From NCBI RefSeq assembly GCF_014850975.1, contig NZ_JACXST010000003.1, positions 1,178,001-1,242,000 of the forward strand: a DNA stretch of 64,000 nucleotides. Reading direction: 5' to 3'. The position numbers and the translations under genes were made by a program. This document shows positions 8,092 through 62,235 of this stretch, piece by piece; positions within the stretch are counted from its first letter, which is position 1, and every line of letters starts with the position of its first letter. The notes beneath the pieces were generated by a model, which did not search any database, had not been told where the DNA came from, and saw nothing but the letters and a program-made list of their open reading frames with translations. The DNA comes from Methylomonas fluvii (GTDB lineage Bacteria; Pseudomonadota; Gammaproteobacteria; Methylococcales; Methylomonadaceae).

Positions 8092-8095
8092 CGTT

Positions 8096-13796: not shown

Positions 13797-13839
13797 CTTT
13801 AGAATACCTTCATTCATTAGCATTTATTAATTTTTTCTC

Positions 13840-14094: not shown

Positions 14095-14234
14095 GCAGCA
14101 TTGACATGGCTTTTTGGACTCGTTTCTGACTAAACGGCTCCAATAATAAACAGGCTTGTGATATTTGCGTAGAGTAATGCCGGGGCAAAAATGCCTAAAG
14201 TGCATGAATCAACGGCAAGCAGGCCAACCACACC

Positions 14235-14813: not shown

Positions 14814-14899
14814 GATCGCAATCTCTCTATAACGTCGGTCAAAGATAGCTTAATTTTGGATTTACGTGGCGCGACAGCAGGCTTTACCGACCCGCACCA

Positions 14900-16090: not shown

Positions 16091-16101
16091 TTCGGGTCCT
16101 G

Positions 16102-17613
16102 TTACTTTGCAACCTGCATCTCTATGATAAAACTGCCGCTGTTGCGCAATTCCTGGGCATTGTCATTGCGTAAGGCTTCAATGCGCGCCAAATAAGCATC
16201 GTCAATATCGCCGGTAATGTAATCGTGGCTGAAGCACGAGGTATCGAAATGCTTGATGTCCGGATTACCTCTACCGACCGCTTCAATCAAATCGTCCAGG
16301 CTTTGATAAATCAGCTTATCCGCGCCCAAGGCCTGGCAAATTTCCTCCTCGGTACGATCATGCGCAATTAACTCATGCGCAGCCGGCATATCGATGCCAT
16401 AGACATTGGGATAACGTACGGGTGGTGCCGCAGACGCAAAATACACTTTCTTGGCACCGGCATCGCGGGCCATCTGAATAATCTGCTCGGAAGTCGTGCC
16501 GCGCACGATGGAATCGTCTACCAGCAATACATTCTTGCCGTCGAATTCCAGCGAAATGGCGTTCAGCTTTTGCTTGACCGATTTTTTACGCATTTTTTGC
16601 CCGGGCATGATGAAAGTCCGGCCGATATAGCGGTTTTTCATAAAGCCTTCGCGAAACTTCACACCCAGGTCGTGGGCAATCTGGGACGCGGCGGTACGGC
16701 TGGTATCCGGAATCGGAATCACCACGTCGATGTCGTGGTTCGGCCATTCCCGCTGAATTTTTTCCGCCAGTTTTCTGCCCATCCGCATTCTGGCTTTGTA
16801 CACAGAAATATTGTCGATGATCGAATCCGGCCGAGCAAAATAGACGTATTCGAAAATACACGGGCAATGATCGACCAATTCGGTACATTGCCGGGTATGC
16901 AACTGGCCGCCCGCTTCGATAAACACAGCCTCGCCCGGTTCTATGTCACGTATCAACTGAAAATCCAGCACGTCCAGCGCCACGCTTTCGGAAGCAATCA
17001 TGTAATCATCAGTGCCATCCTCGGTTTTGCGTTTGCCGAACACAATGGGCCGAATGCCATGCGGGTCGCGGAAACCCAATACGCCGAAACCGGCAATCAT
17101 CACGACTACCGCGTAAGCACCGCGAATACGCTTATGTACCGAGCTAACCGCTTGAAACACGTCGTCCACAGTCAATTTGAGCTTGCCGAATTGCGCTAAT
17201 TCATGCGCGAATACATTCAGCAACACTTCCGAATCCGAATCGGTGTTGATGTGGCGCTGGTCATCCATGAATACCTGATATTTCAGTTCTTCGGTGTTGG
17301 TCAAATTGCCGTTGTGCGCCAGCGTCAAGCCAAACGGCGAGTTCACGTAAAAAGGCTGCGCTTCCGCCGAACTGGTACAACCGGCGGTCGGATAGCGTAC
17401 ATGAGCGATGCCCATATTGCCCTTCAACTTCATCATCTGCTTGCTGGAAAAGACGTCCCGCGCCAATCCGTTATCCTTGCGCAAATGCAAACGGCTACCG
17501 TCGCACGTGACGATACCGGCGGCATCCTGACCACGATGCTGAAGTACCGTCAGGGCGTCGTATAAATCCTGATTAACACTTTGATTGGAAACAATAGCGG
17601 CAATACCACACAT
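16102..17613 (-). CDS. purF: amidophosphoribosyltransferase
   Basis: PurF catalyses the first committed purine step, PRPP plus glutamine to phosphoribosylamine. Cys2 in MCGIAAIV is the glutaminase nucleophile after Met removal. Glutaminase markers are [16 protein letters not shown] and INTDSDSE. The phosphoribosyltransferase PRPP loop is [15 protein letters not shown], preceded by [12 protein letters not shown]. The length of 503 residues is normal. It lies 12 bp after cvpA in the conserved cvpA-purF order. Confidence 0.97.
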
Positions 17614-17625
17614 AGCAGACCCAAG

Positions 17626-18144
17626 TTATCGATAATGGATGTAATCCGCCAAACCAGTCGGCATGTGGGTTTTCAACCACACCGCCAAGGCTTGGAACGG
17701 AGGAATGAGAAGGGATTGTTTCCACCAGGGATCTTCCGGCAACGGCGTTAAGCCGGCCAGCATCACCAACAAGGAAACCAGTACCGCCCCGCGGGCAATA
17801 CCGAATAACATACCCAGCAGACGATCGCTACCGGTCAAGCCGGTTTTTTCGATAAGCTGACTCAGCAAAAAACTGATTAAACTACCCAAAATCAAGGTGG
17901 CGAAAAACAGCAACGCGAATGCCGCAGCGATTCTGGCCGAAGGATAGCTAATGGTGGATTGCAGCAGTACCGAAACATCCCGGCAGTACTGCGTTGCCAC
18001 CCAAACCGCCACCATCCAAAGCACCAAGGCAAACGCTTCTTTAATAAATCCGCGCATTAGGCCCATTATCGCCGAAATCAAGATAATGGAAATAACGACG
18101 TAATCGACCCACAGCAACTTGGCCCAGGGTACAAAATCCAACAT
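17626..18144 (-). CDS. cvpA: CvpA family inner-membrane protein
   Basis: A 172-residue membrane protein with four hydrophobic segments: WVDYVVISIILISAIMGLMRG, EAFALVLWMVAVWVATQY, IAAAFALLFFATLILGSLISFLL and LLGMLFGIARGAVLVSLLVMLAGL. The GxxRG after helix one and the DRLLGMLFGIARG block are family signatures. CvpA is linked to colicin V production and biofilm/envelope traits; its molecular role is unsettled. It sits between dedD and purF, its usual place. Confidence 0.92.
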   Translation of the reverse strand: MLDFVPWAKLLWVDYVVISIILISAIMGLMRGFIKEAFALVLWMVAVWVATQYCRDVSVLLQSTISYPSARIAAAFALLFFATLILGSLISFLLSQLIEKTGLTGSDRLLGMLFGIARGAVLVSLLVMLAGLTPLPEDPWWKQSLLIPPFQALAVWLKTHMPTGLADYIHYR

Positions 18145-45321: not shown

Positions 45322-45882
45322 ATTTCTAAACCACGAATAGAAACACCAGCTCGTTCAGGTTGACCACTCTCCTAAAAATCGGCATCCCTAGCTTTGGAGC
45401 TGCACTTCTAATTTAGGCATATTAATTTCAAATATTATCGTTTTATTTAATGAGTTGGTTTCGCTACCCTCTGCGTCTATTAGCAAAACATCCGTTATTA
45501 GGGACTTACTGGACAGATACTCATGCCTTTACAACAATTAGTCGAATATTTTAACGATAGACTTGAGCAGGAACACAATAACGGCTTACGGCCGTTTGTG
45601 CTGGACAACGGCGCTGTGCACGGGGTATTCGGCCCCATCTGCATCGGCAGCAGATTGTCGCCGCTGCGCCAGACTTTGCGCACGGCCAATGTTATAGGTC
45701 ACATCGCGCAACTGAACGTGTCCACTATTCACAAACAAACGATACCAAGCAGCGAGCTGGAACAATACCTGGCCCAGCCCCAGGCCGAACAAACTAATGT
45801 CGAGTCCATCATCAACTTCGACCGGATGTCGCGCGCCGTGCATATGCTGAATTATTTGCCGCAAGCACACCTCGACGAATTA

Positions 45883-47399
45883 GTCGCCCCTGAAAAGCCA
45901 CAAATTCACGGCTAAAGCATTGAAACACAATAAATAATTGAAGAAAAAGACGGGCAATAATTGCAAGAAATTAGTAAAATAGATATTAATTTCTTGCAAA
46001 TTTTTATCGAAAATGAAGCCAAAATCCCAAGAAAGTAGCGGCCAAATCGATCTATTCAACACACCACTGGCCGACCTGTTGAATCCGAAGCATGAGCTTT
46101 ACCAACTGGCAAATTTGATCGATTGGAAAGTACTGGATGATGCGTTCGGTGAATTTTTTACCGAGAACCAAGGCGCTCCGGCGTTGCCAACGCGTCTTAT
46201 TGCCGGGCTTCATTACCTCAAACATGCGTTTGCACGCTCGGACGAAGCGGTCGTGGCACAGTGGCTTGAAAATCCCTATTGGCAATATTTTTGTGGCGAA
46301 GAGTATTTCCAACACCAGATACCTTGCCACCCCACGTCACTGACCTATTGGCGAAAACGGATCGGAGAAGAAGGTTGCGAGTGGATGTTATCGGTGACGA
46401 TCCAGGCTGGCGTAGCCAGCAAGACCGTGAAGAAACAGGATTTTGAATCGGTGACGGTTGATAGCACGGTGCAAGAGAAAGCCATCACGTATCCGACCGA
46501 TGGAAAATTGTATGAACGCTGTCGCCAGCACATGGTACGTCTGGCTGAGCAGCATGAGATTACACTACGGCAGAACTACAACCGCAAAGCCCCCTATTTG
46601 CTGATGATGGCGAACCGGTACAGTCATGCCAAGCAAATGAAGCGCAAACGCAAAATGCTCAAACAGCTCAAAACTTTGGTGGGTCGGGTTTACCGAGATA
46701 TCGAGCGCCAATTGACGGATCAATCCGATGCAGTCAAATTGGCTTTTAAAGAGACGCTAGAGAAAACCCAACGGATTTTGAACCAACAACCCCAGGATAA
46801 AAACAAGCTGTACAGTTTCCACGCCACGGAAGTCGAATGCATTTCCAAAGGCAAAGTCCACAAGAAGTATGAATTCGGCGTCAAAGTGGGCATCACCGTC
46901 ACCAACAAAAGTAATTTTGTGCTCGGCGCCCGCAGCTTTTCCGGTAATCCCTACGATGGACACACCCTGGAATCGTGTCTGGAACAGGCGGAGATTCTAA
47001 GCGGTACACGCGCAAAAGAAGCTTTTGTGGATTTAGGATACCGTGGTGTCGAGGTCCCGAACGTGACCATTTACAAAGCCCGGCAAAAGAGAGGAATAAA
47101 CACCCGGCGACTCAAACGCGCCCTCAAACGCCGCAATGCCATCGAACCCGTCATCGGGCACCTCAAAAACGACGGATTGCTGGGCCGCAATTACCTGAAA
47201 GGCGAACTGGGCGATGCCATGCATGCCATCTTATGCGGTGCTGGCCACAATATCCGTATGATCCTCAGGCAGTTGAGGATTTTTTTGCCTCATTTTTGGA
47301 GACCGCCATGTCGGATTTTGGCGCGGCCATTGAGCGCGCCGTTTTTATTGTCGGCCTGAATGCTGGTGTTCGGAAAATATCGGCTTTTTCAGGGACGAC
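45883..47399 (+). mobile_element. 1,517-bp insertion sequence, copy 1 (inside EAL gene)
   Basis: The ends are imperfect inverted repeats: left GTCGCCCCTGAAAAGCC, and right, read inward, GTCGTCCCTGAAAAAGCC. A 6-bp direct repeat GAATTA flanks it. It carries one 448-codon DDE transposase on the plus strand. A second copy of identical length and coding content lies at 49036-50552 in inverse orientation. Confidence 0.92.
46013..47359 (+). CDS. IS transposase (IS5-superfamily DDE), copy 1
   Basis: A 448-residue DDE transposase. It starts with an N-terminal region typical of IS5-superfamily members (QIDLFNTPLADLLNP, LIAGLHYLKHAFARSDEAVV), and the catalytic residues are Asp in VTVDSTVQEK, Asp in AFVDLGYRGVE and Glu in RNAIEPVIGHLKNDG followed by RNYLKG. 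The C-terminus ends 40 bp before the element's right end. The translation is identical to that of copy 2, so the element is recently active. Confidence 0.92.
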   Translation: MKPKSQESSGQIDLFNTPLADLLNPKHELYQLANLIDWKVLDDAFGEFFTENQGAPALPTRLIAGLHYLKHAFARSDEAVVAQWLENPYWQYFCGEEYFQHQIPCHPTSLTYWRKRIGEEGCEWMLSVTIQAGVASKTVKKQDFESVTVDSTVQEKAITYPTDGKLYERCRQHMVRLAEQHEITLRQNYNRKAPYLLMMANRYSHAKQMKRKRKMLKQLKTLVGRVYRDIERQLTDQSDAVKLAFKETLEKTQRILNQQPQDKNKLYSFHATEVECISKGKVHKKYEFGVKVGITVTNKSNFVLGARSFSGNPYDGHTLESCLEQAEILSGTRAKEAFVDLGYRGVEVPNVTIYKARQKRGINTRRLKRALKRRNAIEPVIGHLKNDGLLGRNYLKGELGDAMHAILCGAGHNIRMILRQLRIFLPHFWRPPCRILARPLSAPFLLSA

Positions 47400-49035: not shown

Positions 49036-50552
49036 GTCGTCCCTGAAAAAGCCGATATTTTCCGAACACCAGCATTCAGGCCGACAATAAAAACGGCGCG
49101 CTCAATGGCCGCGCCAAAATCCGACATGGCGGTCTCCAAAAATGAGGCAAAAAAATCCTCAACTGCCTGAGGATCATACGGATATTGTGGCCAGCACCGC
49201 ATAAGATGGCATGCATGGCATCGCCCAGTTCGCCTTTCAGGTAATTGCGGCCCAGCAATCCGTCGTTTTTGAGGTGCCCGATGACGGGTTCGATGGCATT
49301 GCGGCGTTTGAGGGCGCGTTTGAGTCGCCGGGTGTTTATTCCTCTCTTTTGCCGGGCTTTGTAAATGGTCACGTTCGGGACCTCGACACCACGGTATCCT
49401 AAATCCACAAAAGCTTCTTTTGCGCGTGTACCGCTTAGAATCTCCGCCTGTTCCAGACACGATTCCAGGGTGTGTCCATCGTAGGGATTACCGGAAAAGC
49501 TGCGGGCGCCGAGCACAAAATTACTTTTGTTGGTGACGGTGATGCCCACTTTGACGCCGAATTCATACTTCTTGTGGACTTTGCCTTTGGAAATGCATTC
49601 GACTTCCGTGGCGTGGAAACTGTACAGCTTGTTTTTATCCTGGGGTTGTTGGTTCAAAATCCGTTGGGTTTTCTCTAGCGTCTCTTTAAAAGCCAATTTG
49701 ACTGCATCGGATTGATCCGTCAATTGGCGCTCGATATCTCGGTAAACCCGACCCACCAAAGTTTTGAGCTGTTTGAGCATTTTGCGTTTGCGCTTCATTT
49801 GCTTGGCATGACTGTACCGGTTCGCCATCATCAGCAAATAGGGGGCTTTGCGGTTGTAGTTCTGCCGTAGTGTAATCTCATGCTGCTCAGCCAGACGTAC
49901 CATGTGCTGGCGACAGCGTTCATACAATTTTCCATCGGTCGGATACGTGATGGCTTTCTCTTGCACCGTGCTATCAACCGTCACCGATTCAAAATCCTGT
50001 TTCTTCACGGTCTTGCTGGCTACGCCAGCCTGGATCGTCACCGATAACATCCACTCGCAACCTTCTTCTCCGATCCGTTTTCGCCAATAGGTCAGTGACG
50101 TGGGGTGGCAAGGTATCTGGTGTTGGAAATACTCTTCGCCACAAAAATATTGCCAATAGGGATTTTCAAGCCACTGTGCCACGACCGCTTCGTCCGAGCG
50201 TGCAAACGCATGTTTGAGGTAATGAAGCCCGGCAATAAGACGCGTTGGCAACGCCGGAGCGCCTTGGTTCTCGGTAAAAAATTCACCGAACGCATCATCC
50301 AGTACTTTCCAATCGATCAAATTTGCCAGTTGGTAAAGCTCATGCTTCGGATTCAACAGGTCGGCCAGTGGTGTGTTGAATAGATCGATTTGGCCGCTAC
50401 TTTCTTGGGATTTTGGCTTCATTTTCGATAAAAATTTGCAAGAAATTAATATCTATTTTACTAATTTCTTGCAATTATTGCCCGTCTTTTTCTTCAATTA
50501 TTTATTGTGTTTCAATGCTTTAGCCGTGAATTTGTGGCTTTTCAGGGGCGAC
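49036..50552 (-). mobile_element. 1,517-bp insertion sequence, copy 2 (inverted)
   Basis: Same length and ends as copy 1, in opposite orientation, with the transposase the same distance (130 bp) from its left end. Flanks are TAGCTA and TAATTA, not a clean 6-bp repeat, in contrast to copy 1. The flank therefore either mutated or was formed by recombination. Confidence 0.9.
49076..50422 (-). CDS. IS transposase (IS5-superfamily DDE), copy 2
   Basis: The predicted protein is identical residue by residue to the 448-residue transposase at 46013-47359, including the DDE residues (VTVDSTVQEK, AFVDLGYRGVE, RNAIEPVIGHL). Both appear intact. Two identical functional copies in inverse orientation bracket a 1.6-kb segment holding the 3' part of the EAL gene and the IS630 element. 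Confidence 0.92.
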   Translation of the reverse strand: MKPKSQESSGQIDLFNTPLADLLNPKHELYQLANLIDWKVLDDAFGEFFTENQGAPALPTRLIAGLHYLKHAFARSDEAVVAQWLENPYWQYFCGEEYFQHQIPCHPTSLTYWRKRIGEEGCEWMLSVTIQAGVASKTVKKQDFESVTVDSTVQEKAITYPTDGKLYERCRQHMVRLAEQHEITLRQNYNRKAPYLLMMANRYSHAKQMKRKRKMLKQLKTLVGRVYRDIERQLTDQSDAVKLAFKETLEKTQRILNQQPQDKNKLYSFHATEVECISKGKVHKKYEFGVKVGITVTNKSNFVLGARSFSGNPYDGHTLESCLEQAEILSGTRAKEAFVDLGYRGVEVPNVTIYKARQKRGINTRRLKRALKRRNAIEPVIGHLKNDGLLGRNYLKGELGDAMHAILCGAGHNIRMILRQLRIFLPHFWRPPCRILARPLSAPFLLSA

Positions 50553-50571
50553 TAATTAACCACCATGTTAG

Positions 50572-50722: not shown

Positions 50723-52054
50723 TCAGTCCCTTACCTTGATAATCACTGATCTATTAAGCGGCTCACTCATATTCGGTGCAGTAATAACGGGAAGAGACTG
50801 GGTTGCTAGGTCTGACGAAAAGATGCGACTTGGTTCAATGCCTCCATAGGATATGAGTCGCTCCCTAACAACATCAGTTCGTTGCTTTGTGAGGGTACGA
50901 TTTCGTGCGGCTGACCCTGTAGTGTCGGTATTGCTTGAAAGGAGTAGAATTGAAGTAGGGTGAGCTTGTGCAATAGTGCGAATGATATCAATGGTATGGT
51001 CTGCCGACCTGGAAAGTTTGGATTCATTAGTATCGAACAATATTTGTTCACTCAAGGGGGGGCGCGCAGTGGTTTTATTCTCAGGACAGGAAAGGAATAT
51101 TGGTGGCGCCAAAGAAGGGTTGTCATTGATCAATACTCGCAGAATGGCCGAGGATATTTCAGCCCGTTCTTTGCTGATGTCCTTATCGGTATTCTTGCCG
51201 AATCCTGCCTTAATTAGGTCGCTGAATAGACTCACTGGGGCTTTTCCGGCTTCGCTAGAAAAGCCCTTTATGAATTCCGTTGCCGCAACTGAGGGAAGCG
51301 AAGAAGCATCTGACTCTTTACTTTCTGCTGCTTTTATAGCATTGAGAGCCATGTCGGCCAGTATACCCAAGAAGCCGCTATTAACCAATGGAGGTGTCGA
51401 CGCATGTGGAGGGCTAACCGGTTCCGAAGGCAAACCAGAGATTTTGGGTACAGCTTCGATCGGTTTTGATGCAGGGTAGACCCCTGGTGTTGTAAAACTT
51501 GCGCCTTGATTGTTACCCGAATGTCCGTCACCATTTGCGAGAGGGCACTGTTTAAATGGGGCAATTAGACAAGCGTAAACGCCGAGAATACTAAAAACAA
51601 TGGCAAGGAATATAAAAAATTGTGTTCGATTCCTCGTAGTTGGCTCAGCACCGTGATTTGCAAAGCAGTATTCCGTGCCATCATTCGCTTTTTCATCGCC
51701 TTCTGACAGGCAATCCTTGAGAAGACCGAGCACATAACACGACATAGCTAGCCACGCAAAGATAGCCACTGCGATAATGAAAGCAGATTCTTTAGTCAGC
51801 GCAAGATGATTGATAGACTCAAAGACCTTATTAAAAAGCCAAGCGCTTAATACCAAAATACCAACAATTGCAATAAAAAACCTCGAGCGACAATGAAAAA
51901 CCAATACATACCAACCACAAACTATTGCGTACGCAATAAACAATTGGCCAAAGAACTGAAGACGACCGCTATAGTTCGTAAGAATAATTTGACCAATAAC
52001 TATTAAAACGCCAGCCAAGAAAATAAGCCAATATGCTGCTTTTTTTCCAGACAT
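50723..52054 (-). CDS. inner-membrane protein with C-terminal OmpA-like peptidoglycan-binding domain
   Basis: A 443-residue protein. Five hydrophobic helices occupy residues 1-165 (for example YWLIFLAGVLIVIGQIILT, FFIAIVGILVLSAWLF, TQFFIFLAIVFSILGVYACL). A long Ser/Pro/Ala-rich stretch follows, then an OmpA/MotB-type domain: ILFDTNESKLSRSADHTID, LLLSSNTDTTGSAARN, LTKQRTDVVRERLISYGGIEPSRI and PLNRSVIIKV. The TDxxGS and NRxV elements are the diaminopimelate contacts. Anchoring in the inner membrane instead of the outer resembles MotB. It starts 5 bp after the 623-residue gene, so the two are coupled; its role is unknown. Confidence 0.78.
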   Translation of the reverse strand: MSGKKAAYWLIFLAGVLIVIGQIILTNYSGRLQFFGQLFIAYAIVCGWYVLVFHCRSRFFIAIVGILVLSAWLFNKVFESINHLALTKESAFIIAVAIFAWLAMSCYVLGLLKDCLSEGDEKANDGTEYCFANHGAEPTTRNRTQFFIFLAIVFSILGVYACLIAPFKQCPLANGDGHSGNNQGASFTTPGVYPASKPIEAVPKISGLPSEPVSPPHASTPPLVNSGFLGILADMALNAIKAAESKESDASSLPSVAATEFIKGFSSEAGKAPVSLFSDLIKAGFGKNTDKDISKERAEISSAILRVLINDNPSLAPPIFLSCPENKTTARPPLSEQILFDTNESKLSRSADHTIDIIRTIAQAHPTSILLLSSNTDTTGSAARNRTLTKQRTDVVRERLISYGGIEPSRIFSSDLATQSLPVITAPNMSEPLNRSVIIKVRD

Positions 52055-52059
52055 AGCGA

Positions 52060-53931
52060 TTATCTCCTAGAAATCAAAGAATAAATATAAGCTACCAATA
52101 CGCCCAGATGGAAAAATCCAGACGCAACAATTATGCAGGTAATTCCAATTAAAGACCAAGACGATTTATCGGGTGCGGCAGTGCCAGAAAAGAAAGCGCT
52201 CCATACTCCAGAAATAGCGGCCTTCCAACTTCCATCTATGAACCACCAAGCCATGCATGAAGCGCCGAGCCACAATAGAATCACAAGCATGAATAAAGGG
52301 AAAGATGCTAGAAGAAATTCCGCATACCACAAGATACCGTTGGTTAATAAACGGAATGGATTAGTTACTTTCAAACCAACCAAATGCCGATGCCAGCGGC
52401 GCATTCGCACCATGCACTCGTGTTCCTCCTCGAAACGTCCAGCCTCGCGGAAAACTTGGGCCAAGCGGTTCATAATGGTGATGAGCGAGTGCAATTCTGA
52501 TTCTCGCCGTTTATTCTTTGCAAACCTTACGGCAATAGCGTTAACTTCATTCTCGATTTCATCGGCGCGGGTTTTAACGTCGAAATGATAGCCAACCCCC
52601 ACGAATGCGCATTCCGCTCTGGCCTCGAATTCATGCTTTAGCACCAATGCCTGTAAAGTCATGGTAGGTGTCATGCCGCTGAGAAGTTCCGCCGCCTCTG
52701 TCGCCAATACCGCACCTTGGATGAAGTCCTGGACTGTATTGGCTTTCGGTAGTGTTTCTAATGCGCGGTTTAACAAGGTTTCGGCAATCAACATAAGTTT
52801 TCCGGGGGCGCCATGTCCGATCCCCTCAGCAAAGGCATCTGGAGTAAGTAGCCTAGGTGGCCAAAAGAAACCCTTGGCGTTTCCACGTCTATTTAGCTTT
52901 TCCCGAAGAAACCTGAACAGTCCCGCCTTCTGCCAGAGATCCATCATGCCGCCAGACGGTTTTAATACTTTTCGTCCACAACCTTCTTTTTTGTGTTCTT
53001 TTAAATAAATGAGATTTTTTTTTAGAGTGTCGTGACAAGGCATATCTTGGCCTGTTGTTATTAGAATCCTGAACTTAGAATTTTCGTGTATTTTGCATGC
53101 CGAATGGAGTCTTAGAAAATGGTATGCCCGGCCTTGTTTTTTATCATTGTCAATATCAAAATCAAGTATATTTTTGTTTAGAGGCTTATCAGGAAAATTA
53201 AGACTCATATCCTCAAGAAGAAGCTCGAAGCCATGCCCTTTGTCATTTTGTCCATCGTTGAACAATTTCGACATCAAGGTCCAAGAAGTAACGACATCCG
53301 TGCGATACCCATAACGAAAAGAGGTGTAACCATGAAAATAAGCAAAGCTCTTTTCATCTTCAATTGCCGCAGCTTTGTGCATTCGATTCGGAAGATTCAG
53401 GTTATTACCCTTATCAAATTTAACCGTGCAATCCTTTACCCATTGCCGTAATTCCAAAGAATCGAATATGGCGTCTCTTCTTGGGCAGGAAAGTAAACTC
53501 GGCAGAGAATGTTCAGCCACTAAAAACTTAGCTTTATGCTCTTCTTGTTCGTTTAGATCCTCTAAGCTTCCTAGTATCACCCCAAAAACCCAGTGAATCT
53601 CAGGAAATGTCAAAATCAGCATAGCAATCAGGTTATCCCAAGTGATTCCTTCGGCAATTGCGCTTAGGGCTTTCGGCCTTACCGTATCAACCAAAACCAC
53701 GATTTCATTTAACGGAATCTTTCCTTCATTACCGCCAGACACGCATTCAATAGCACTCGCCAAATATTCATAAGCCAATACGGCTCCTTCGCCGCCAGAA
53801 TAATACTCGCGATCCCAGATAATGCACTTAGGATCGGTAGGCTGTAGCTCAGGTTCGTTAAGCAATTCTAACCACCCCCCTAACGCAAGGGCGGTGACTT
53901 CGGATTGGGCCAAAATGAGATAATGCGACAT
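52060..53931 (-). CDS. hypothetical 623-residue protein with channel-like two-helix C-terminus
   Basis: No family recognised. The N-terminal 120 residues look like an alpha/beta domain with strands HYLILAQ, KCIIWDREYY, EIVVLVDTV and IHWVFGVI. A central soluble region (FAYFHGYTSFRYGYRTDVVTSW; ILITTGQDMPCHDTLKKN; GSGM-like KPSGGMMDLWQ) and a helical segment (ADEIENEVNAIAVRFAKNKRRESE) follow. The C-terminus has two helices (about 535-562 and 592-620) with a semi-hydrophobic re-entrant-like stretch between (WKAAISGVWSAFFSG), an arrangement like a 2-TM ion-channel pore, though no selectivity filter is seen. ATG 53931 is preferred over TTG 53946. Composition is AT-rich. Confidence 0.6.
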   Translation of the reverse strand: MSHYLILAQSEVTALALGGWLELLNEPELQPTDPKCIIWDREYYSGGEGAVLAYEYLASAIECVSGGNEGKIPLNEIVVLVDTVRPKALSAIAEGITWDNLIAMLILTFPEIHWVFGVILGSLEDLNEQEEHKAKFLVAEHSLPSLLSCPRRDAIFDSLELRQWVKDCTVKFDKGNNLNLPNRMHKAAAIEDEKSFAYFHGYTSFRYGYRTDVVTSWTLMSKLFNDGQNDKGHGFELLLEDMSLNFPDKPLNKNILDFDIDNDKKQGRAYHFLRLHSACKIHENSKFRILITTGQDMPCHDTLKKNLIYLKEHKKEGCGRKVLKPSGGMMDLWQKAGLFRFLREKLNRRGNAKGFFWPPRLLTPDAFAEGIGHGAPGKLMLIAETLLNRALETLPKANTVQDFIQGAVLATEAAELLSGMTPTMTLQALVLKHEFEARAECAFVGVGYHFDVKTRADEIENEVNAIAVRFAKNKRRESELHSLITIMNRLAQVFREAGRFEEEHECMVRMRRWHRHLVGLKVTNPFRLLTNGILWYAEFLLASFPLFMLVILLWLGASCMAWWFIDGSWKAAISGVWSAFFSGTAAPDKSSWSLIGITCIIVASGFFHLGVLVAYIYSLISRR

Positions 53932-54132
53932 GGTTTTATTGATCAAGTTTGCCGTTATATTTCAATCACACATTCATCGGATTATATATTAGAATTAATG
54001 AGCTAAATCATTCCTGCGATAGAAATTGATATTCGCTACATGCTGAAAACGAAAACAATCAGGGGTTTGTATTCTATTTAAGATACTGGCTTTTTTTGTA
54101 AAACACAGTCTTAATTTGAATCTGGTATAAAT

Positions 54133-54888
54133 TCAAATTGCACTCTTTACTTCTTCCAAAAGCTTTGTATAGTTCGATTGGAAATCATAATTGTAACCTT
54201 CATTTCTCACCCAGTTTAGAAACAGGAACAGTTCATTTGAATTTGAAAGGGAGCAGCCCTTTCTTCTTGTCCATTCAATTTTGATTTTTTCATCAAAATC
54301 GCTCTCTTTACTTAATCGTTTGTACCACCATTCTCTGCTAATCACATTCAAACCTTGTTTGGTTAGATTATTTATTTGGTGTGGACATGGATCGATAATA
54401 TGCTGAGATAATACATGCTGAGCTAATTGAAGAATAATATTCAAACCTGATAGGTAGAGCTGTTTGCTATCAAATAATAACCATGGTTTATTTTCATTAG
54501 AGCAGCCCTTTAATACCCAATTTTCAAGGGAGATCAACTCTTCTTTTGTAAATGGTTCTGTAGCAGAAACGGATCTATAGCGAACCCAATTCCCCTCCTC
54601 AAGTTCAGCAGACAAATCCCCAGCAGAAAAACGGACTACCGGTCTATCTTTGAGTATGTCTGGCCACTCGCAGGTGGAAAAACTTGCCCAATCGGATTCG
54701 TGGACTAAGAACCAGCATTTGTAAGCTGAAATTAAATTATTGGCATCTGTATCGTCAGTGTTACAAATAGTGAATTCTCGACCATTTATATCTCTCCAAC
54801 CGTCATCGTGCCAACGAAGAATGTCGATATCGGTGTTAATTGCCTTGTATGCCCTGTCAGGATTGGTAATGTCAAATAATAAAATCAT
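54133..54888 (-). CDS. hypothetical 251-residue protein of the kinase-like/receiver-like unit
   Basis: A soluble 251-residue protein without recognisable domain. It is rich in Trp (DILRWHDDGWRDING, YKCWFLVHESDWASF) and acidic residues, with a central RPVVRFSAGDLS strand and LLFDSKQLYLSGLNIILQLAQHVL helix, and a Trp/Arg-rich C-terminal part (REWWYKRLSKESDFDEKI). Its first 4 bases overlap the stop of the receiver-like gene (ATGA), so they are translationally coupled and probably function together. A 201-bp AT-rich gap follows. Function unknown. Confidence 0.6.
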   Translation of the reverse strand: MILLFDITNPDRAYKAINTDIDILRWHDDGWRDINGREFTICNTDDTDANNLISAYKCWFLVHESDWASFSTCEWPDILKDRPVVRFSAGDLSAELEEGNWVRYRSVSATEPFTKEELISLENWVLKGCSNENKPWLLFDSKQLYLSGLNIILQLAQHVLSQHIIDPCPHQINNLTKQGLNVISREWWYKRLSKESDFDEKIKIEWTRRKGCSLSNSNELFLFLNWVRNEGYNYDFQSNYTKLLEEVKSAI

Positions 54889-56129
54889 GAGACGCGAAAC
54901 TCTATTTCCGTTCTGGTATCAATGACTCTGACATTCACTATGGAACGAGCATCAACTCCCAATTTTTCTCCGCAATCGCCAAGATGGAACACAAGAGCTC
55001 TAAGTAACTCATAGGTATTTCCACCCTCAGAGGAAAAATTGTGCATTTTTTCTACTAATTTCGACCAAGGCTCATCGTAAACAATTCTAAAAAATTTGGA
55101 ATTACCTGCCTTTATCTCACAATTCGATATATTTGCTTTTCCATCGCGTTCATGATTTTCAACAAGAAGCGGGAAAAGGCGATCTGCGATAAGGCCTAGC
55201 CAAGCACGAATATGATCTTTTGACTGATGTTCACTACACAATAAAACTTCCCTACAGGATTTTTCAAGCCTGAAGTAAGTAGCCAATCTTTTAAGTTCAT
55301 TTTCATTCCATTTTCCACTTTGTATGGCAGACCTTAGGAATAAGATTGGGAGAACACCGATACATGGAAGATAACCGCTTTCTACATGACATTTTGCATG
55401 GCCGCCAATCAATGTTTTCAGTGCTTCAAAGTATCCTTCAAAATTTTCCTTAATTATTCTGGCAATAGGGTCCGGCAACTTTTGCATACCCAGGCATTCA
55501 GTGATTACAGGCAGAAATTTTTCCCATAACTGGTCTGAAAATATATGGGGCAGACCTTCTCCCGCGTCCGAAAAATGATTTTTCCAATTTGGCTTGTTCC
55601 ATAACGCTGATATTTTTTTTGGTGTTGTCGCTGCTAGACATTGGTCTAAAATGTCATTTACCCATCTAGTACGCTGATCATCAAAAAGTAGATTCCATGA
55701 TTTCTCCGATTGTTTGAGCCGAGATTCAATTTCATTTTTTTGATGAGTCCATTTTTGAACAATAAGTCCGGTAGCTGTTGAGCTGCTTATTAAATCCATG
55801 ATATGTCCAACTTCGAGCAAGCCGAACAAAGCCTTTTGAAGGTCGGTGCCAAGGTCATAGTCAGAATTATTAATTTTTTCATGCGGAAAAATGAGTTCTA
55901 CATCCCATATCCAAATAGATATGTCTTCATTAGCTTTAGATTGTATGAATTTAATGAGCCCTTCCTTTGAGTCAATTCGTTGTTCATCATCTGTGGCGGG
56001 AAAATCTAGTTTTATATTATCAGCTAACTCTGGTCTGAGCCAAAGAACTTCATGGGCGCGGCGCTTCTTGATTTCAGTAATAAATGTTTTTGCACGCTCT
56101 GCGTAATCATCAACAATATAGAATTTCAT
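54885..56129 (-). CDS. receiver-like (REC) N-terminal protein, 415 residues with unknown C-terminal region
   Basis: It begins MKFYIVDDYAERAKTFI, a response-regulator start with the acidic pair Asp7/Asp8. SIWIWDVELIF places an Asp at about residue 76 at the end of a predicted strand, the position of a phosphoacceptor, and SSTATGLIVQKW offers Thr118 to 120 and Lys126. The fit is loose, with an insertion before Asp76, so this is a divergent receiver, not a certain one. Residues 140-415 are helical and unrecognised (VITECLGMQKLPDPIARII; LRAWLGLIADRLFPLLVENH). AGGAG precedes ATG 56129. It starts 2 bp after the kinase-like gene and overlaps the next gene, so it belongs to a coupled three-gene unit. 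Confidence 0.62.
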   Translation of the reverse strand: MKFYIVDDYAERAKTFITEIKKRRAHEVLWLRPELADNIKLDFPATDDEQRIDSKEGLIKFIQSKANEDISIWIWDVELIFPHEKINNSDYDLGTDLQKALFGLLEVGHIMDLISSSTATGLIVQKWTHQKNEIESRLKQSEKSWNLLFDDQRTRWVNDILDQCLAATTPKKISALWNKPNWKNHFSDAGEGLPHIFSDQLWEKFLPVITECLGMQKLPDPIARIIKENFEGYFEALKTLIGGHAKCHVESGYLPCIGVLPILFLRSAIQSGKWNENELKRLATYFRLEKSCREVLLCSEHQSKDHIRAWLGLIADRLFPLLVENHERDGKANISNCEIKAGNSKFFRIVYDEPWSKLVEKMHNFSSEGGNTYELLRALVFHLGDCGEKLGVDARSIVNVRVIDTRTEIEFRVS

Positions 56130-56131
56130 TA

Positions 56132-58093
56132 TTAACTCTCCTGACGCCACTTAATAAATTCTGCAGGCATGGAAAAAGCCGTTATCCAATTATTACATTC
56201 AGAATCATAATCAAAGATTACTTTATCAATATCTCCGCCATAAACTTGAACTAGATAACGAATAACAGCCTCTGTGCCTCCATCATATTTTTTGCCTGGC
56301 TCAGTCGCATGATTTTTCATCAGAAATGAAATATTGCCTTTATCATAGTCAAATTTTAAGGATTTCAGATCCTCAGTTTTTTCAAGAGCATTCGAAAGAC
56401 TTGCGCTGAACAACCTTGCAAATCCTATATCGGAACCTTCACTTTTGAGTGGTATCCAGTATAAACGTGAATCACATAGGATAAGAGACTGTATTTTCTT
56501 GAATAGAGCTTCACTTTGTTTCAAAAATAAATCATCAATATCTCTTTTAAAAGAAGATTCAACAACGTCAATAGAAGAAAACGTTTTCGCAACATGGCTT
56601 GAAGCAATAACCTCAGTAAGCTTGTAAAGTGCATCAATCAAAGGCATTGGTGTAGAAATTTCAACACGGTTAAACCAACCCTTTCCAGTCCAGAGAGTAA
56701 ACTTATCAGCTACTGACTTATATATTTTCGGAGCCATTATTAGTTGCCAGTTTTCCGTTCTAACCATTTGGTTACGGTTTTGCTCTAATCGTCCAAATTG
56801 ATCAGATCCACTTGGTATAGCTGTCGAAAATTTGACTAAAAAATCATTTGTTAGAAACGATTGTAAATTTGATAATTCATGCGTGATGTTATCAAAAATA
56901 TCCCGAAAGGCTTGCGACTTTAATCTGCTTTTCTGATAATTACCGTAATATACGGTATCTGCTAAAGGTGCACTTGCAAATTGCATAAATAGCTTAATTA
57001 AGCCAATATCATCTTCGATATGCCCGCTCTCTTGTACTGTTCCTAAAAAAACAATGCCACAAGTAGATATTTTAGGTTCTGGATTTGTAATTTGTCCAGG
57101 TTTTTTTGGCATTGTATATTCGATTGGAAACTTGGGCGAATGTAATATTGGTACCACACAGTGGCCAAACTTCCGTATATCCATAATATTTAAAAATAAA
57201 TAAGGTATTACAGGAAAAAGAGCGTCATCATGTAAGAGAAGTATTTCCTTAATAAGGTAATTATTCGAGTTATCTCGATAATTATTTTCAATTGGGACAT
57301 TATCTTTTCTTTCTAGCGCATCAAAAACTTCTTTGACCGTTACGGAGCTACATAAAGATTGGATGTCATTCTGCGTATTATCAATAAAGAAGAAATACTC
57401 TGGTAAGCAGAAAAACTCTGAATCTTTATTTTCACCCGCCTTTTTCCAGCCCTGCTGAATAATGTCGATCAAGTTTTTATCAAGTGTTTTTTCATACGCC
57501 GATTTATTACGCCTGTCCCTAGCTCGTTCTGAAGTAGCTTTTAAGCCATTTGTTGATACTGCTGCATACCGCCAAATATCAAGCCATGCTTTTAATTTGG
57601 CAACAATGTCGGCAGAGTTAACATACGTAAATGGTTCCTCTTCAATTTTCCGATAAAACTCAGGGACTAAAACTGGAGCGGCTGCATCATTGATAACCTG
57701 CTTATCTCGTTGCATTTGAAATAAATTATGTATCCAATTGGAATATAATTTTTCTAAAGGATGCTTTTTCCCTGAGTCCCTATCATTAGTATTAAGGTAT
57801 GAAACTAATTTTTCAAGTATGGACTCTTTTGGTGGACTTTTAAGTATGGAGTCGTCTAGTGGAAGATAAGGAAATAGGTTTTCGTCTTTGTCTTTGGTAT
57901 CAGGATAATGCCTCCATAGCTCAAATGAGTTCGTCCCCATATTGGCTATTCCATATGCGCCTCCAAGCACATTAAAAGCACAAGCGATTTTATTAGTGGT
58001 CGCAACAAGTACCGCTTCATATTCTTCTTTTGGACATTTTCTCCAATCATTTAATGCATTTTCCAATTCTATGGCAAATTTCTCAATTTCCAT
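56132..58093 (-). CDS. divergent histidine-kinase-like protein (GAF-like, H-box, degenerate ATPase), 653 residues
   Basis: A soluble protein. Residues 1-220 are unrecognised. Residues about 225-385 have a GAF-like pattern, ending CGIVFLGTVQESGHIEDDIG and LIKLFMQFASAPLADTVY. Residues 395-418 read FRDIFDNITHELSNLQSF, an H-box-like helix with His405 at the phospho-acceptor position. The C-terminus has GGTEAVIRYLVQVYGGDIDK (605-624), which matches the G2 box and following helix of GHKL ATPases (compare GGTGLGLxIVxxIVxxxGG) but lacks the GLGL glycines; N and G1 boxes are not evident. It may be an inactive or phosphotransfer-type kinase. It forms a tight unit with the receiver-like gene. AT-rich composition. 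Confidence 0.65.
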   Translation of the reverse strand: MEIEKFAIELENALNDWRKCPKEEYEAVLVATTNKIACAFNVLGGAYGIANMGTNSFELWRHYPDTKDKDENLFPYLPLDDSILKSPPKESILEKLVSYLNTNDRDSGKKHPLEKLYSNWIHNLFQMQRDKQVINDAAAPVLVPEFYRKIEEEPFTYVNSADIVAKLKAWLDIWRYAAVSTNGLKATSERARDRRNKSAYEKTLDKNLIDIIQQGWKKAGENKDSEFFCLPEYFFFIDNTQNDIQSLCSSVTVKEVFDALERKDNVPIENNYRDNSNNYLIKEILLLHDDALFPVIPYLFLNIMDIRKFGHCVVPILHSPKFPIEYTMPKKPGQITNPEPKISTCGIVFLGTVQESGHIEDDIGLIKLFMQFASAPLADTVYYGNYQKSRLKSQAFRDIFDNITHELSNLQSFLTNDFLVKFSTAIPSGSDQFGRLEQNRNQMVRTENWQLIMAPKIYKSVADKFTLWTGKGWFNRVEISTPMPLIDALYKLTEVIASSHVAKTFSSIDVVESSFKRDIDDLFLKQSEALFKKIQSLILCDSRLYWIPLKSEGSDIGFARLFSASLSNALEKTEDLKSLKFDYDKGNISFLMKNHATEPGKKYDGGTEAVIRYLVQVYGGDIDKVIFDYDSECNNWITAFSMPAEFIKWRQES

Positions 58094-58141: not shown

Positions 58142-58990
58142 TCACTTTTTAGCCCAAAGCAATCCGACTTGCCAGTATCGAAAGGGATTTCCGACTTCCG
58201 TAAAGCCAGATCTTTTAAGCACCTCCATTTGCCTAGTCATGCTATCTAGTTTATTTTCCCACCGATAATGCCAAACCCAAGCATTCTTTAATTCACGAAG
58301 TTTCATGGCTCGTTCAGAATCTATGTCATCTGCTGATTTTGCTTCCCTCTCAAAATTATCTGAAATCCAATTTGTTTCCCATTTGGCAATTGTATCAGTC
58401 AAAATCGCTGATTCTTTTTTATAGTTAAATAGATCGCCCAATATAAACACGCCACCATCTTTGAGAAGGCTATGAATTAAACCAAATACCTTTTCTTTTT
58501 CGCATTCATTTTTATCTTCGTCAGAAGAAAAATGGTGGATGGTGAAAGCCGAAATGACTAAATTAAATTTTGTGACGTTAAAGCTATCCTTTGCTTGACA
58601 TTGAATTTTATTTAGTATTTCTTCTTCAAGTATGTCAGCTTCTATTAACCTATATCTATTCCTATCAATACGTAACTCATCGGCTCGTTCTTGAAATATA
58701 TCAAGCATAGGTTGGCATAGATCAATTCCAATGAGTTTTAGTGTAGGTATCTTTTCTAAAAGTTTTATTGCCTCTTCTCCTGTACCTGAACCAATGTCAA
58801 GAGCAATAATATTCTGGTCGTTACTAACCAACTCATCACCGAGCGATTCTTCAACCAATTGAAACATCATTTCGTGCATTAAACAATAATGCGGAGCGAC
58901 CCATTCAATGGTTTCATCATACATATTTGCTTCTTTCATTGCGTAAAAAAACTTTCTACGCTTTTCTGCATCATTCATGATACTACCCAT
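58142..58990 (-). CDS. class I SAM-dependent methyltransferase
   Basis: A 282-residue Rossmann methyltransferase. Motif I is ALDIGSGTGEEAI with Asp65, motif II is LIGIDLCQPMLD, then YRLIEADIL, and NLVISAFTIHHF is motif IV-like, with a family-typical SLLKDGGVFILGDLF strand. The N-terminal helix region and the C-terminal Trp/Tyr-rich cap (NAWVWHYRWENKLDSM) suggest a small-molecule substrate. It lies 48 bp before the kinase-like gene and 6 bp after the ABC ATPase. ATG 58978 is an alternative start. Confidence 0.85.
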   Translation of the reverse strand: MGSIMNDAEKRRKFFYAMKEANMYDETIEWVAPHYCLMHEMMFQLVEESLGDELVSNDQNIIALDIGSGTGEEAIKLLEKIPTLKLIGIDLCQPMLDIFQERADELRIDRNRYRLIEADILEEEILNKIQCQAKDSFNVTKFNLVISAFTIHHFSSDEDKNECEKEKVFGLIHSLLKDGGVFILGDLFNYKKESAILTDTIAKWETNWISDNFEREAKSADDIDSERAMKLRELKNAWVWHYRWENKLDSMTRQMEVLKRSGFTEVGNPFRYWQVGLLWAKK

Positions 58991-58995
58991 ATAGT

Positions 58996-59742
58996 CTAAA
59001 TATTATTCTGAAGGGCTTCTAGTTCTGAGAATGCATTCATAAAACTTATTAAAGCAGGCGTTTGGGGATTATTTAAAATCTCAAAGTTGCCACTTTCACG
59101 AATACATCCATTTTCGAGAAAAATCACTTTATCTGCCATGCGACGGACAAATCCAAGATAATGCGTAATCAATAATATAGTCATCCCATCATTTTTAAGA
59201 TTATTTAAGTGTTTGACGATTTCTGCTGCCTGTTCTACATCCAAAGCCGATGTTATCTCGTCAAGGAGAAGATAATCTGGCTTCAAAGCAAGAGCTCGTG
59301 CTAAAGCGACACGTTGCTTTTGTCCGCCCGATACTTCGTTTGGGTATCGGTCAATAAAGCTAGCCATATCAAATTGTTCAATAATCTCGTTAACAATATC
59401 ATTTGCTGATGAGTTTTTTTTTAATTCGAGAGGTAAGAGAATATTCTTTCGAAGCGTCAAATGCGGCCATAGGAAGAGTTGCTGAAATACCGCCGTAACT
59501 TTGGGCCATGGTTGCAAGTTTCTGAACCACATATCGAGTGGATAATTCGCTTGTTTGTCTCCTATGGTTAGCGTTCCGGAATTTGGTGGTTCTAGGCAAG
59601 CGAGAATACGTAGAAGAGTCGATTTGCCGGCACCATTAGGTCCAATCAGCGCAGTAATTGTTCCATCATCTAATTCAATAGATACGTCAGAAAGCACTGA
59701 GTTATTATCATAAGATTTGTATATATTGCGGCAATTAAGCAT
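58996..59742 (-). CDS. ABC transporter ATP-binding protein, polar amino acid type
   Basis: A 248-residue nucleotide-binding subunit. Walker A is GPNGAGKST, the Q-loop lies in FQQLFLWPHLTLRKN, the signature is VSGGQKQRVALARALA, and Walker B is YLLLDEITSALD with the H-loop in LLITHYLGFVRRMADKV. The sequence groups with GlnQ/HisP-type importers. The permease gene lies 7 bp upstream and the methyltransferase 5 bp downstream. Confidence 0.93.
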   Translation of the reverse strand: MLNCRNIYKSYDNNSVLSDVSIELDDGTITALIGPNGAGKSTLLRILACLEPPNSGTLTIGDKQANYPLDMWFRNLQPWPKVTAVFQQLFLWPHLTLRKNILLPLELKKNSSANDIVNEIIEQFDMASFIDRYPNEVSGGQKQRVALARALALKPDYLLLDEITSALDVEQAAEIVKHLNNLKNDGMTILLITHYLGFVRRMADKVIFLENGCIRESGNFEILNNPQTPALISFMNAFSELEALQNNI

Positions 59743-59749: not shown

Positions 59750-60415
59750 TTATGTTTCAGAAATGTTTCTAGTATATTTCCATCGCAGCCATAACGCTAA
59801 TCCATTTAAAGGAAGGCATATCAACAGAAAGAAAATACCTAATGCAGAATATATCTCCACTGGTTTATAAATCATCGAATTTATGCGCTGAGCAACTCGA
59901 AAAATCTCTTCAACAGAAATCAAACTAGCAAATAATGTTGATTGAAACATGACAACCTGCAAATTCAGCAATATTGGAATCAATTGCCTGAGTAGGATAG
60001 GTAGCTTGATATGAAACAAAGCTTGGCGCGAAGTTAAACCAGTAACTTTTGCTGCCAAAATATATTGTTGAGGAAAATCGATGCTTGCATCCCGTACAAC
60101 TTGTGCAACCCCAAACGTGTTTACAATCGATAGCGCAAAAGCTGCAGTAATAAACGGTTCTATTACGATCTCAAGTGTGGCTTGTAAAGGGTAGTGAAGC
60201 CAAAAAAGAAGAACAAGAATTGGAAGACCCGAAAGGAAAAATGCTCCGATAGAGACAAATAAACCCACTGTTGCTGGGGCACGCGCCGCAATAACTCCTA
60301 ACAAACCGCCAAGAAAAATCCCAACACTCCAGATGATAGCCGAAAGTTTGACCGTAACCCAAAGGCCTTTTAGAAAAGCTTCCTGATAGTCTATGATGAT
60401 CTGAAAAATGCCCAT
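59750..60415 (-). CDS. ABC transporter permease, polar amino acid (HisM/GlnP) type
   Basis: A 221-residue permease with about five helices and the EAA loop around DASIDFPQQYILAAKVTGLTSRQALFHIKLP. The helix before (ITAAFALSIVNTFGVAQVV) and after (LLNLQVVMFQSTLFASLIS) fit the type. It would form the membrane channel for the amino acid-type substrate, as a homodimer because only one permease gene is present. Confidence 0.9.
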   Translation of the reverse strand: MGIFQIIIDYQEAFLKGLWVTVKLSAIIWSVGIFLGGLLGVIAARAPATVGLFVSIGAFFLSGLPILVLLFWLHYPLQATLEIVIEPFITAAFALSIVNTFGVAQVVRDASIDFPQQYILAAKVTGLTSRQALFHIKLPILLRQLIPILLNLQVVMFQSTLFASLISVEEIFRVAQRINSMIYKPVEIYSALGIFFLLICLPLNGLALWLRWKYTRNISET

Positions 60416-60451: not shown

Positions 60452-61396
60452 TTACTCTGATTTAACCAGTTCAAATGGTTGTGCACGACGATAAAATGCT
60501 CCGGGGAAAGGCTCATATTTCCTCAGAACTTGATCAACAAATCCGTTGTTTACTAATTCGTCAATAACATTATCTAATGTTCGCCTTAGAATTGTATCGT
60601 CCTGACGAAGCATCATGGTATTCGCATAGAGACGAATTGGTTTACCTGGACGAGCAGGACGAATTTTCCCTGGGTTAGTTTTGATGAAATCATAAGCGAC
60701 AAAAGGCTCTACAAAGGTAATATCCGCTTTTTTTTCAGCCACACTCAACAACGCTTGCGATATATCAGTAAGCTGTGGAAGTGAAAGCTTATTTGCCTTA
60801 GGGAAATCTCTCTGCGCAATTGCCTCTGTAACTTCACCATCAATTGTCGCTATGCGATATTTTGAATTGTTAAGAATTTCTAGATTCGCATCAAATCTGT
60901 CATCACCTTGCCGAACATATGCCTCAGCTCCCCCAAAGTAGATCGGTTGGGTAAAGTCCGCTACTTTTGCTCGTTGGCTGAGCGGCCAAACAGGAGAGCA
61001 AATAATGTCATATCGTTTGGTTTGAAGGCCTTCGACCATCGTTCCCCACCCAACTTCCTCCGTCCACTCCACCTTTAGACCAAGATTTTTGGCGGCTTCT
61101 TCCAATACCTCGGGGAAAACACCAGTGATTTCCCCCGTATTCGGGTCTTTAATGAGTCCAGGCGGATAAGCTACATAGCCGCACCGAATTACACCGGATT
61201 GAATGATTTTTTCATAAGCGATTTTGGAGTTGTCGCCAGACGTTTCGATTGAACCAAAACCAGCAGTGTTAGAAGTCCTGACGTCCAAGTTATTAATTGT
61301 AATAAATCCTGTAGAAATCATCCTGATGGTACTGACTACGATTATTGCGCCCATCAATACGGAAAGCAAAACTGTGAAGAGATTGGTCTGTTTCAT
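60452..61396 (-). CDS. ABC transporter substrate-binding protein (family 3), N-terminally anchored
   Basis: A 314-residue extracytoplasmic solute-binding protein. An N-terminal hydrophobic segment (LFTVLLSVLMGAIIVVSTIRM) without a clear cleavage site or lipobox may stay as an anchor. The binding fold follows: GVIRCGYVAYPPGLIKDP, TGEITGVFPEVLEEAAKNLG, VEGLQTKRYDIICSPVWPLSQRAKVADFTQPIYF, ending KLSLPQLTDISQALLSVAEKKADITFVEPFVAYDF. It is likely specific for an amino acid or aromatic/polar ligand. ATG 61396 with GAGAA upstream is preferred over TTG 61408. It is the first gene of the minus-strand block. Confidence 0.9.
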   Translation of the reverse strand: MKQTNLFTVLLSVLMGAIIVVSTIRMISTGFITINNLDVRTSNTAGFGSIETSGDNSKIAYEKIIQSGVIRCGYVAYPPGLIKDPNTGEITGVFPEVLEEAAKNLGLKVEWTEEVGWGTMVEGLQTKRYDIICSPVWPLSQRAKVADFTQPIYFGGAEAYVRQGDDRFDANLEILNNSKYRIATIDGEVTEAIAQRDFPKANKLSLPQLTDISQALLSVAEKKADITFVEPFVAYDFIKTNPGKIRPARPGKPIRLYANTMMLRQDDTILRRTLDNVIDELVNNGFVDQVLRKYEPFPGAFYRRAQPFELVKSE

Positions 61397-61610
61397 AAAA
61401 TTTCTCAATGTTGATTGCTTGTTTGATTATATGTTGATTTCTTGTGTAAAACCTCAGGCCTGATCGGATAGTTACTGGTTTTTTAGCAGGCGGTTGATTT
61501 TATCTCCTGCGCAAGTCGCATTAATTTGTTGCGCTAGACGTGCAGACAAGTCGTAAGACACTGTTCCATATGATAAAATCGTTCTATATCCAATATATTG
61601 TATCTCCCCT

Positions 61611-62235
61611 ATGCGCGGCACCGACATCACTCAAGAAGAACTCTACAGTTATCGAACTGTGGAAAGCCGGATTCCCCAAAAGCATCCGCTTCGCAAGTTG
61701 CGTAAAGTCGTCGACCTGCTGCTCGCCACACTTCAACACAATCTACGCCCGGCGTGGCCGGGATGATCCCTCCGGTACGCTTGCTGCGCGTAGTCTATTG
61801 CAAGTGCTGTTTTCCATTCGTTCGGAACGGTAATTGGTGGAAGATATTGATTTCGACTTACTGTACTGCTGGTTCGTCGGCTTGACGATGGGCGACACCG
61901 TATGGGATCACTCTACCTTCAGCGCCAATCGCGACCGCTTGCTGAACGAATATATCAGTAGTTTGTTTTTCGAACGGATACTGGCCTTGGCCGAATGGAA
62001 AAAACTGATCTCTGACGTGCATTTTTCGGTGGACGGCATGCTGATCCAAGCCTTGGCTTCGCACAAGAGTTTCGTCAAGAAAGACGGTTCGACGCCGCCG
62101 GAACACGGCGGCCGTAATCCCATGGTCGACTTCAATATCCAAAGGGCATAAAAGGCGAAAAGTGCAGCAACTATACACACGCATCGATCACTACCCCCAA
62201 AGCCTAGTTGTACAAGAAGAGCGAGGACGACAAAA
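61611..62235 (+). pseudogene. decayed IS5/IS1182-like transposase fragment
   Basis: ATG 61611 reads MRGTDITQEELYSYRTVESR and KHPLRKLRKVVDLLLATL, then the frame fails at TGA 61764-61766. Relatives continue with what is found in another frame (FNTIYARRGRDDPSGTL, SLLQVLFSIRSER, a stop), then LVEDIDFDLLYCWFVGL, WDHSTFSANRDRLLNE and DGSTPPEHGGRNPMVDF. Two stops after that and no C-terminal half show that it is a truncated, frameshifted relic. It closes the AT-rich block on the right. Confidence 0.8.

Follow-up and report, generated by a model that had tools for sequence, protein, structure and literature searches.

A rare ABC importer gene row in Methylomonas fluvii that may end in a degenerate two-component-like signalling system

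The genome of Methylomonas fluvii (assembly GCF_014850975.1) carries a tight row of seven genes on the minus strand of contig NZ_JACXST010000003.1, which we analyzed within a stretch of 64,000 nucleotides (positions 1,178,001 to 1,242,000, hereafter the window, with positions counted from its first letter). Read from 61408 down to 54133, the row encodes the substrate-binding protein (SBP), the permease, and the ATPase of an ATP-binding cassette (ABC) importer, followed by a methyltransferase, a kinase-like protein, a receiver-like protein, and a third protein (Table 1). The successive gaps are 36, 7, 5, 48, 2, and -4 bp, and 186 bp separate the third gene from the next one. The GC content is 0.378 for the seven genes together, compared to 0.444 for the next two genes and 0.520 for positions 1 to 45000. 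Because the genes lie on one strand with tight gaps and differ in GC content from the next genes, a single operon is the natural reading of the sequence, and this operon was probably acquired horizontally. The original prediction had described the last three genes as a three-gene two-component-like unit in an AT-rich block. Its three open reading frames (ORFs), with their sizes and spacing, and the AT-richness of the block were confirmed; the unit itself has to be enlarged, as the importer and methyltransferase genes precede the trio in the same row.

Table 1. Features of the window and related loci in other genomes (L numbers denote loci, each with its own coordinates)
Feature	Position	Strand	Size	Match or remark
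SBP	60452-61408	-	318 aa from TTG; ATG 4 codons on	Pfam SBP_bac_3, E 6.7e-22
Importer permease	59750-60415	-	221 aa	Pfam BPD_transp_1, E 8.8e-11; 40-61% identity to 6 relatives
Importer ATPase	58996-59742	-	248 aa	Pfam ABC_tran, E 2.4e-32
Class I S-adenosylmethionine-dependent methyltransferase	58142-58990	-	282 aa	Pfam Methyltransf_31, E 1.1e-12
Kinase-like protein	56132-58093	-	653 aa	ORF list; motifs
Receiver-like protein	54885-56129	-	414 aa from the MKFYIVDD ATG; 421 aa by first start
Third protein	54133-54888	-	251 aa	Overlaps receiver gene by 4 bp; no recognized domain
Second gene pair behind the unit	50723-53946		628 aa and 443 aa	Gap 5 bp; 443-aa protein has an OmpA domain
Insertion sequence, two copies in opposite orientation	45878-47399 and 49036-50557		1522 nt	100% identical, 1636 nt apart
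Transposase-like ORF remnant	61834-62151			Just upstream of the operon; by reading only
L071, Obscuribacterales	6523-10789			Importer, methyltransferase, NCS2 purine-type permease
L074, Dysgonamonadaceae (Bacteroidota)	9917-17593			Importer, methyltransferase, NCS2 purine-type permease
L083, Kordia jejudonensis (Bacteroidota)	9899-18013			Importer, methyltransferase, NCS2 purine-type permease
L078, Mucilaginibacter galii	9827-14755			Importer and 860-aa protein
L075, Methylumidiphilus	4196-8743			Importer and two further proteins
Importer ATPases with extra C-terminal domain	L076: 11429-12595; L083: 11419-12612			Extra domain of about 140-150 residues

The first three proteins belong to SBP family 3, BPD_transp_1, and ABC_tran. 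Their genes are adjacent and all three matches lie above the Pfam cut-offs, which is the gene set of a polar amino acid ABC importer. The best NCBIfam rows for the ATPase are arginine and glutamine importer ATPases, both under their cut-offs. Judged from these families, the importer would carry a polar amino-acid-like small molecule. The SBP is 37 to 40% identical to five aligned relatives. By reading, it has a plain hydrophobic N-terminus without a lipobox, and the SBPs of the Dysgonamonadaceae, Kordia, Mucilaginibacter, and Methylumidiphilus loci have a lipoprotein-like cysteine.

The N-terminal region of the kinase-like protein, from about residue 114 to 390, recurs beside an importer in Mucilaginibacter galii. 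There, genes for an SBP, a permease, an ATPase, and an 860-aa protein follow one another with gaps of -1, -4, and -1 bp, and residues 436 to 823 of the 860-aa protein match the PADLOC model for LmuA, a Lamassu effector (E 2e-76). The part N-terminal to LmuA aligns with the window kinase with an hhalign score of 36.2, which none of 300 shuffles reached (maximum, 25.6), and among 402 ORFs ranked against it the window kinase came first (the top three rows are one gene; the next scored 28.4). Aligned blocks include FQMQRD/FQIQRK, VPEFYRKI/VPEFFKEL, and HSPKFPIEY/HSPKHPISY. The common N-terminal region thus adjoins an SBP-permease-ATPase set in both genomes, as an importer-associated sensor of the Mucilaginibacter type does. 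A tblastn search with the 860-aa protein returned 28 plasmid records, many annotated as 'ABC-three component system protein' (ABC-3C). Four such plasmid contexts comprised two with a named effector, middle component 1, and AAA ATPase, one with the same layout unnamed, and one with a different layout. According to the accessible part of PMC10586767, ABC-3C is part of the Lamassu superfamily and double-Rossmann dehydrogenase domains serve as LmuA effectors. The six other proteins scanned at the Mucilaginibacter locus included no LmuB, apart from the generic match of the importer ATPase, and the N-terminal region had no match in 115 other genomes of the family of Mucilaginibacter. It is the LmuA fusion alone that suggests a possible defence role for the operon, and it lends indirect support to the anti-phage link first proposed for the trio; the trio itself would be the tail of an importer operon.

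Scanning 84,980 species genomes for the SBP by exact short peptides, an approach that misses distant relatives, gave 23 loci in several phyla, a set biased towards loci sharing such a peptide. Nine of the 23 have the permease and ATPase genes close by, whereas 13 or 14 are without one or both. In the subset of incomplete loci that we inspected, the neighbours are ordinary genes (for example DNA polymerase III, gyrase, ATP synthase, and thiolase). In Kordia jejudonensis and in a metagenome-assembled genome (MAG) of the Dysgonamonadaceae, the row runs SBP, permease, ATPase, methyltransferase, NCS2 permease, kinase-like, and receiver-like protein, with gaps of 3, -4, -4, -4, 1, and -4 bp in Kordia and 62, 5, -20, 1, -8, and -4 bp in the MAG. 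The NCS2 permease of Kordia matches Xan_ur_permease (E 1.9e-29). The Obscuribacterales locus has the order permease, ATPase, NCS2 permease, methyltransferase, SBP, and its methyltransferase and NCS2 permease are 42 to 44% and 44 to 45% identical, respectively, to those of the two Bacteroidota loci. The window methyltransferase showed no blastp similarity to the enzymes of these three loci (best E 0.72) and has no relative in plasmids, nor in 359 other genomes of the class at E 1e-8. PADLOC links of the importer ATPase and the Kordia methyltransferase to mads were taken as generic.

The kinase-like proteins of Kordia and the Dysgonamonadaceae are related to each other (E 2.8e-18). Their receiver-like partners are related at the N-terminus (1 of 1000 shuffles as good) but not at the C-terminus (413 of 1000), and share D8, D9, D73, S109, and K136 (Kordia numbering), which we take to be the acid pair, phosphoacceptor, Ser/Thr, and Lys of the receiver (REC) anatomy. 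Against a REC profile they were matched by 0 and 2 of 200 shuffles and ranked 3 and 20 of 322 ORFs, respectively; neither had a significant Response_reg match. Alignments of the two pairs gave nothing in the PDB up to E 10, and the Kordia kinase gave nothing in plasmids. The window pair is like these pairs in position and kind, and this likeness is a leading argument for its interpretation. A further importer locus, in a Methylumidiphilus MAG, encodes a membrane-like 453-aa protein, a DUF3050 protein (E 4.8e-70), SBP, permease, and ATPase; the 453-aa protein aligns with the Mucilaginibacter N-terminal region (hhalign score, 26.4; 6 of 1000 shuffles) and has no direct likeness to the window kinase (394 of 1000).

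These loci bear on two other explanations. The trio could be a stand-alone Detocs-like anti-phage system, with the third protein as effector and the importer genes merely upstream. Its gaps of 2 and -4 bp are tight compared to the 48 bp to the methyltransferase, it has the look of horizontal acquisition, and HATPase and REC are among the domain names of predicted defence systems in the accessible part of a 2026 defence-prediction paper (PMC13092281). Yet the trio has no PADLOC match and its third protein no recognized domain, the Kordia and Dysgonamonadaceae pairs sit inside the importer operon, and the Mucilaginibacter relative of the kinase N-terminus overlaps the importer ATPase gene, so that we consider this explanation distinctly improbable. 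An ordinary uptake operon without a conflict role, in which a nutrient importer and a methyltransferase stand under a divergent two-component pair, fits the scores of the SBP, permease, and ATPase as polar amino acid transport proteins, the purine-type permease that gives the Obscuribacterales, Dysgonamonadaceae, and Kordia operons a metabolic look, and the metabolic neighbours in three annotated plasmid loci whose SBPs are 28 to 30% identical. It accounts less well for a receiver without a recognized DNA-binding output, for a kinase N-terminal region that recurs fused to a Lamassu effector, and for the very rare and scattered occurrence of importer and sensor: the SBP was found in 2 of 237 genomes of the family, the second being a 26% match, and in 1 of 218 Bacteroidota genomes at E 1e-50. 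We regard it as not very likely.

Within the window, the kinase-like protein has an H-box-like ITHELSN with His405, an N-box-like SLSNAL at 565, and a G2-like GGTEAV at 605, and its C-terminus ranked 9 of 322 ORFs against a GHKL ATPase profile, in register and with 2 of 200 shuffles as good. The receiver-like protein, searched in a 415-aa form one residue longer than the 414-aa form, has Asp76 and Lys126 followed by about 290 residues without a recognized fold; whether Lys126 is the beta-5 lysine is uncertain. Against the REC profile, 10 of 200 shuffles did as well as its N-terminus, whose best alignment is in register. Both profiles were built from domains of this same genome and two ORFs returned no score in the shuffle and rank tests; taken together, the profile results appear to be more than nothing but not proof. 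His405, Asp76, and Lys126 are where the original prediction had placed them. A GHKL-like domain in the receiver C-terminus was rejected: Smith-Waterman alignment gave a slight likeness between it (54885-55230) and the C-terminal part of the kinase (56132-56500), with 8 of 1000 shuffles as good, but the GHKL profile gave no such signal (85 of 200). A pseudo-receiver role for the third protein was likewise rejected, as 14 of 200 shuffles scored as well and it ranked 52 of 322.

Database searches with the trio were largely empty. The kinase-like protein had no HisKA or HATPase_c match and no Pfam or PADLOC family at E up to 1, the receiver-like protein had no Response_reg or other Pfam family at E up to 1, no PADLOC match, and no recognized DNA-binding output, and the third protein, which may have a divergent domain, had no family in Pfam, PADLOC, or NCBIfam. 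None of the three matched a PDB sequence up to E 10. NCBIfam gave two chance-level rows for the trio (E 0.057 and 0.092), and PHROGs gave one weak family of unknown function for residues 123 to 145 of the receiver (E 0.0017). No relative of the kinase was found in 368 other genomes of the class or in plasmids and phages (five chance rows only in the plasmid search at E 10), and its DNA together with that of the receiver had no match in Escherichia coli. Scans by exact short peptides, which again miss distant relatives, gave 15 pattern matches to the kinase in genome contigs, none confirmed, and nothing in viral contigs for the kinase, the receiver, the third protein, or the SBP alignment. The receiver had no relative in the genomes of 199 relatives and 397 other members of the phylum and none in plasmids at E 1; the third protein gave one chance row in plasmids at E 10. 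Conservation of the trio as a unit, which had been put forward as a check, therefore found no support in the genomes and plasmids sampled.

We consider an importer-coupled degenerate two-component-like system, belonging to a rare operon family in which an importer is combined with exchangeable outputs and encoded by a horizontally acquired seven-gene operon, to be the best explanation, and hold it tentatively, at somewhat short of an even chance. Several results speak against it. Other tests show the relation of the window kinase to the Mucilaginibacter protein less strongly: 5 of 1000 shuffles did as well in Smith-Waterman alignment, and blastp gave E about 0.036, where the best non-self match of the Mucilaginibacter N-terminus was an unrelated ORF of locus L070 (0.029). 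Of the nine loci that have all three importer genes, just two carry a kinase/receiver-like pair. The window kinase is dissimilar to the two kinases there (272 and 262 of 1000 shuffles as good), as is the window receiver to their receivers (385, 544, 657, and 607 of 1000). The pairing of kinase-like and receiver-like proteins claimed originally is thus backed indirectly, by overlapping pairs in the same place behind an importer, and not by pairwise sequence tests. The AlphaFold2 models are poor, with a mean pLDDT (predicted local distance difference test) of 41.0 for the kinase and 37.4 for the receiver, Foldseek of the models gave nothing at or below E 0.001, and the receiver ranked only 37 of 322 ORFs against the REC profile. 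As no domain was recognized by Pfam, PADLOC, NCBIfam, or PDB searches either, the labels GAF, GHKL, and REC of the original prediction rest on in-register motifs, and the folds themselves were not borne out. For the single operon, promoter- and terminator-like sites occur at chance frequency (30 compared to 30.3 expected and 10 compared to 10.5). The same REC rank and the unsupportive Pfam, PDB, and structure searches favor the idea that there is no phosphorelay at all, the motifs being coincidental and the 653-aa protein another kind of sensor or effector with unrelated partners; we find this quite improbable.

In the importer-coupled system that we favor, the SBP, permease, and ATPase would import a polar amino-acid-like small molecule, which the methyltransferase may modify. 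The N-terminal region of the kinase would respond to this molecule, as imported or after modification, or to the state of the importer, and the signal could pass through the degenerate HisKA/GHKL-like part from His405 to Asp76 of the receiver, whose C-terminal region would form the output together with the third protein. Outputs would be exchangeable, with a kinase/receiver-like pair in Kordia and the Dysgonamonadaceae and, in Mucilaginibacter, LmuA joined to the N-terminal region that the two proteins have in common. As related importers stand beside other signalling or defence-type genes in distant bacteria, this may be a little-known way of sensing an outside molecule.

The surroundings of the operon agree in part with the proposed position between insertion sequences. 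Two copies of one element lie on one side, with the gene pair at 50723-53946 separating both from the seven genes; on the other side there is a transposase remnant, recognized by reading only. The 628-aa protein of that pair has hydrophobic segments at its C-terminus and no relative in 90 other genomes, in plasmids, or in viral contigs. Among the importer loci of other genomes, the Pfam scan assigned no separate family to the extra C-terminal domains of the two ATPases listed in Table 1, and SBP genes of this family are clustered at L072 (five hits), L085 (three), and L086 (four).

A wider reading, which we judge unlikely, is that these loci are undescribed importer-gated immune or conflict operons, in which a signal of danger or kin would reach a common sensory region by way of a dedicated small-molecule importer and a methyltransferase, with exchangeable outputs: a degenerate phosphorelay, a Lamassu-type effector, or others. 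Most known defence systems sense events inside the infected cell; importer-gated defence would sense the outside. If true, the trigger would be an extracellular molecule, for example one from lysed neighbours, and not the phage itself. Nutrient-type importers would be tied to immune-type effectors, and one sensory region, located beside an importer, would be joined in one case with a kinase-like module and in another with a Lamassu effector. The window copy comes from an environmental bacterium that is probably harmless, and with its seven genes it is small enough for ligand, phosphotransfer, and output to be tested one by one.

We did not find this operon type in a partial collection of the literature that included the accessible parts of PMC10586767, PMC7159879, and PMC13092281. 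Compared to Lamassu and ABC-3C, the window kinase shares the region N-terminal to LmuA in Mucilaginibacter; however, LmuA, LmuB, and LmuC were absent from the nine window proteins scanned, which gave generic P-loop/ABC rows for the importer ATPase only, and sensing is SMC-like there whereas it would be by the importer here. On its sequence, the operon would not count as a Lamassu system. Detocs has a kinase-like, a receiver-like, and a third gene in a tight row, as in the window, and the effector domain of the first Detocs system is a nucleotide phosphorylase/nucleosidase. The gene row here differs in the third protein without a recognized effector domain, the long receiver C-terminus, and the importer genes in the row. 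The trio had no match in a 2023 PADLOC library whose content of Detocs models was unchecked; nothing was found that links it to Detocs, and membership is unsupported. Polar amino acid importers have SBP_bac_3, BPD_transp_1, and ABC_tran as the window does, but the nearest collected relatives of the window SBP adjoin methyltransferase, purine permease, kinase/receiver-like, or LmuA genes. In its working principle the operon appears nearest to importer-linked two-component systems of the Bce and Pst/PhoR types, in which importer or ABC genes and a kinase/regulator pair form one sensory unit. Like these it has importer genes, here alongside a kinase-like and receiver-like pair; unlike these it has no HisKA, HATPase_c, or Response_reg match and no known receiver output domain, and it adds a methyltransferase and a third protein.

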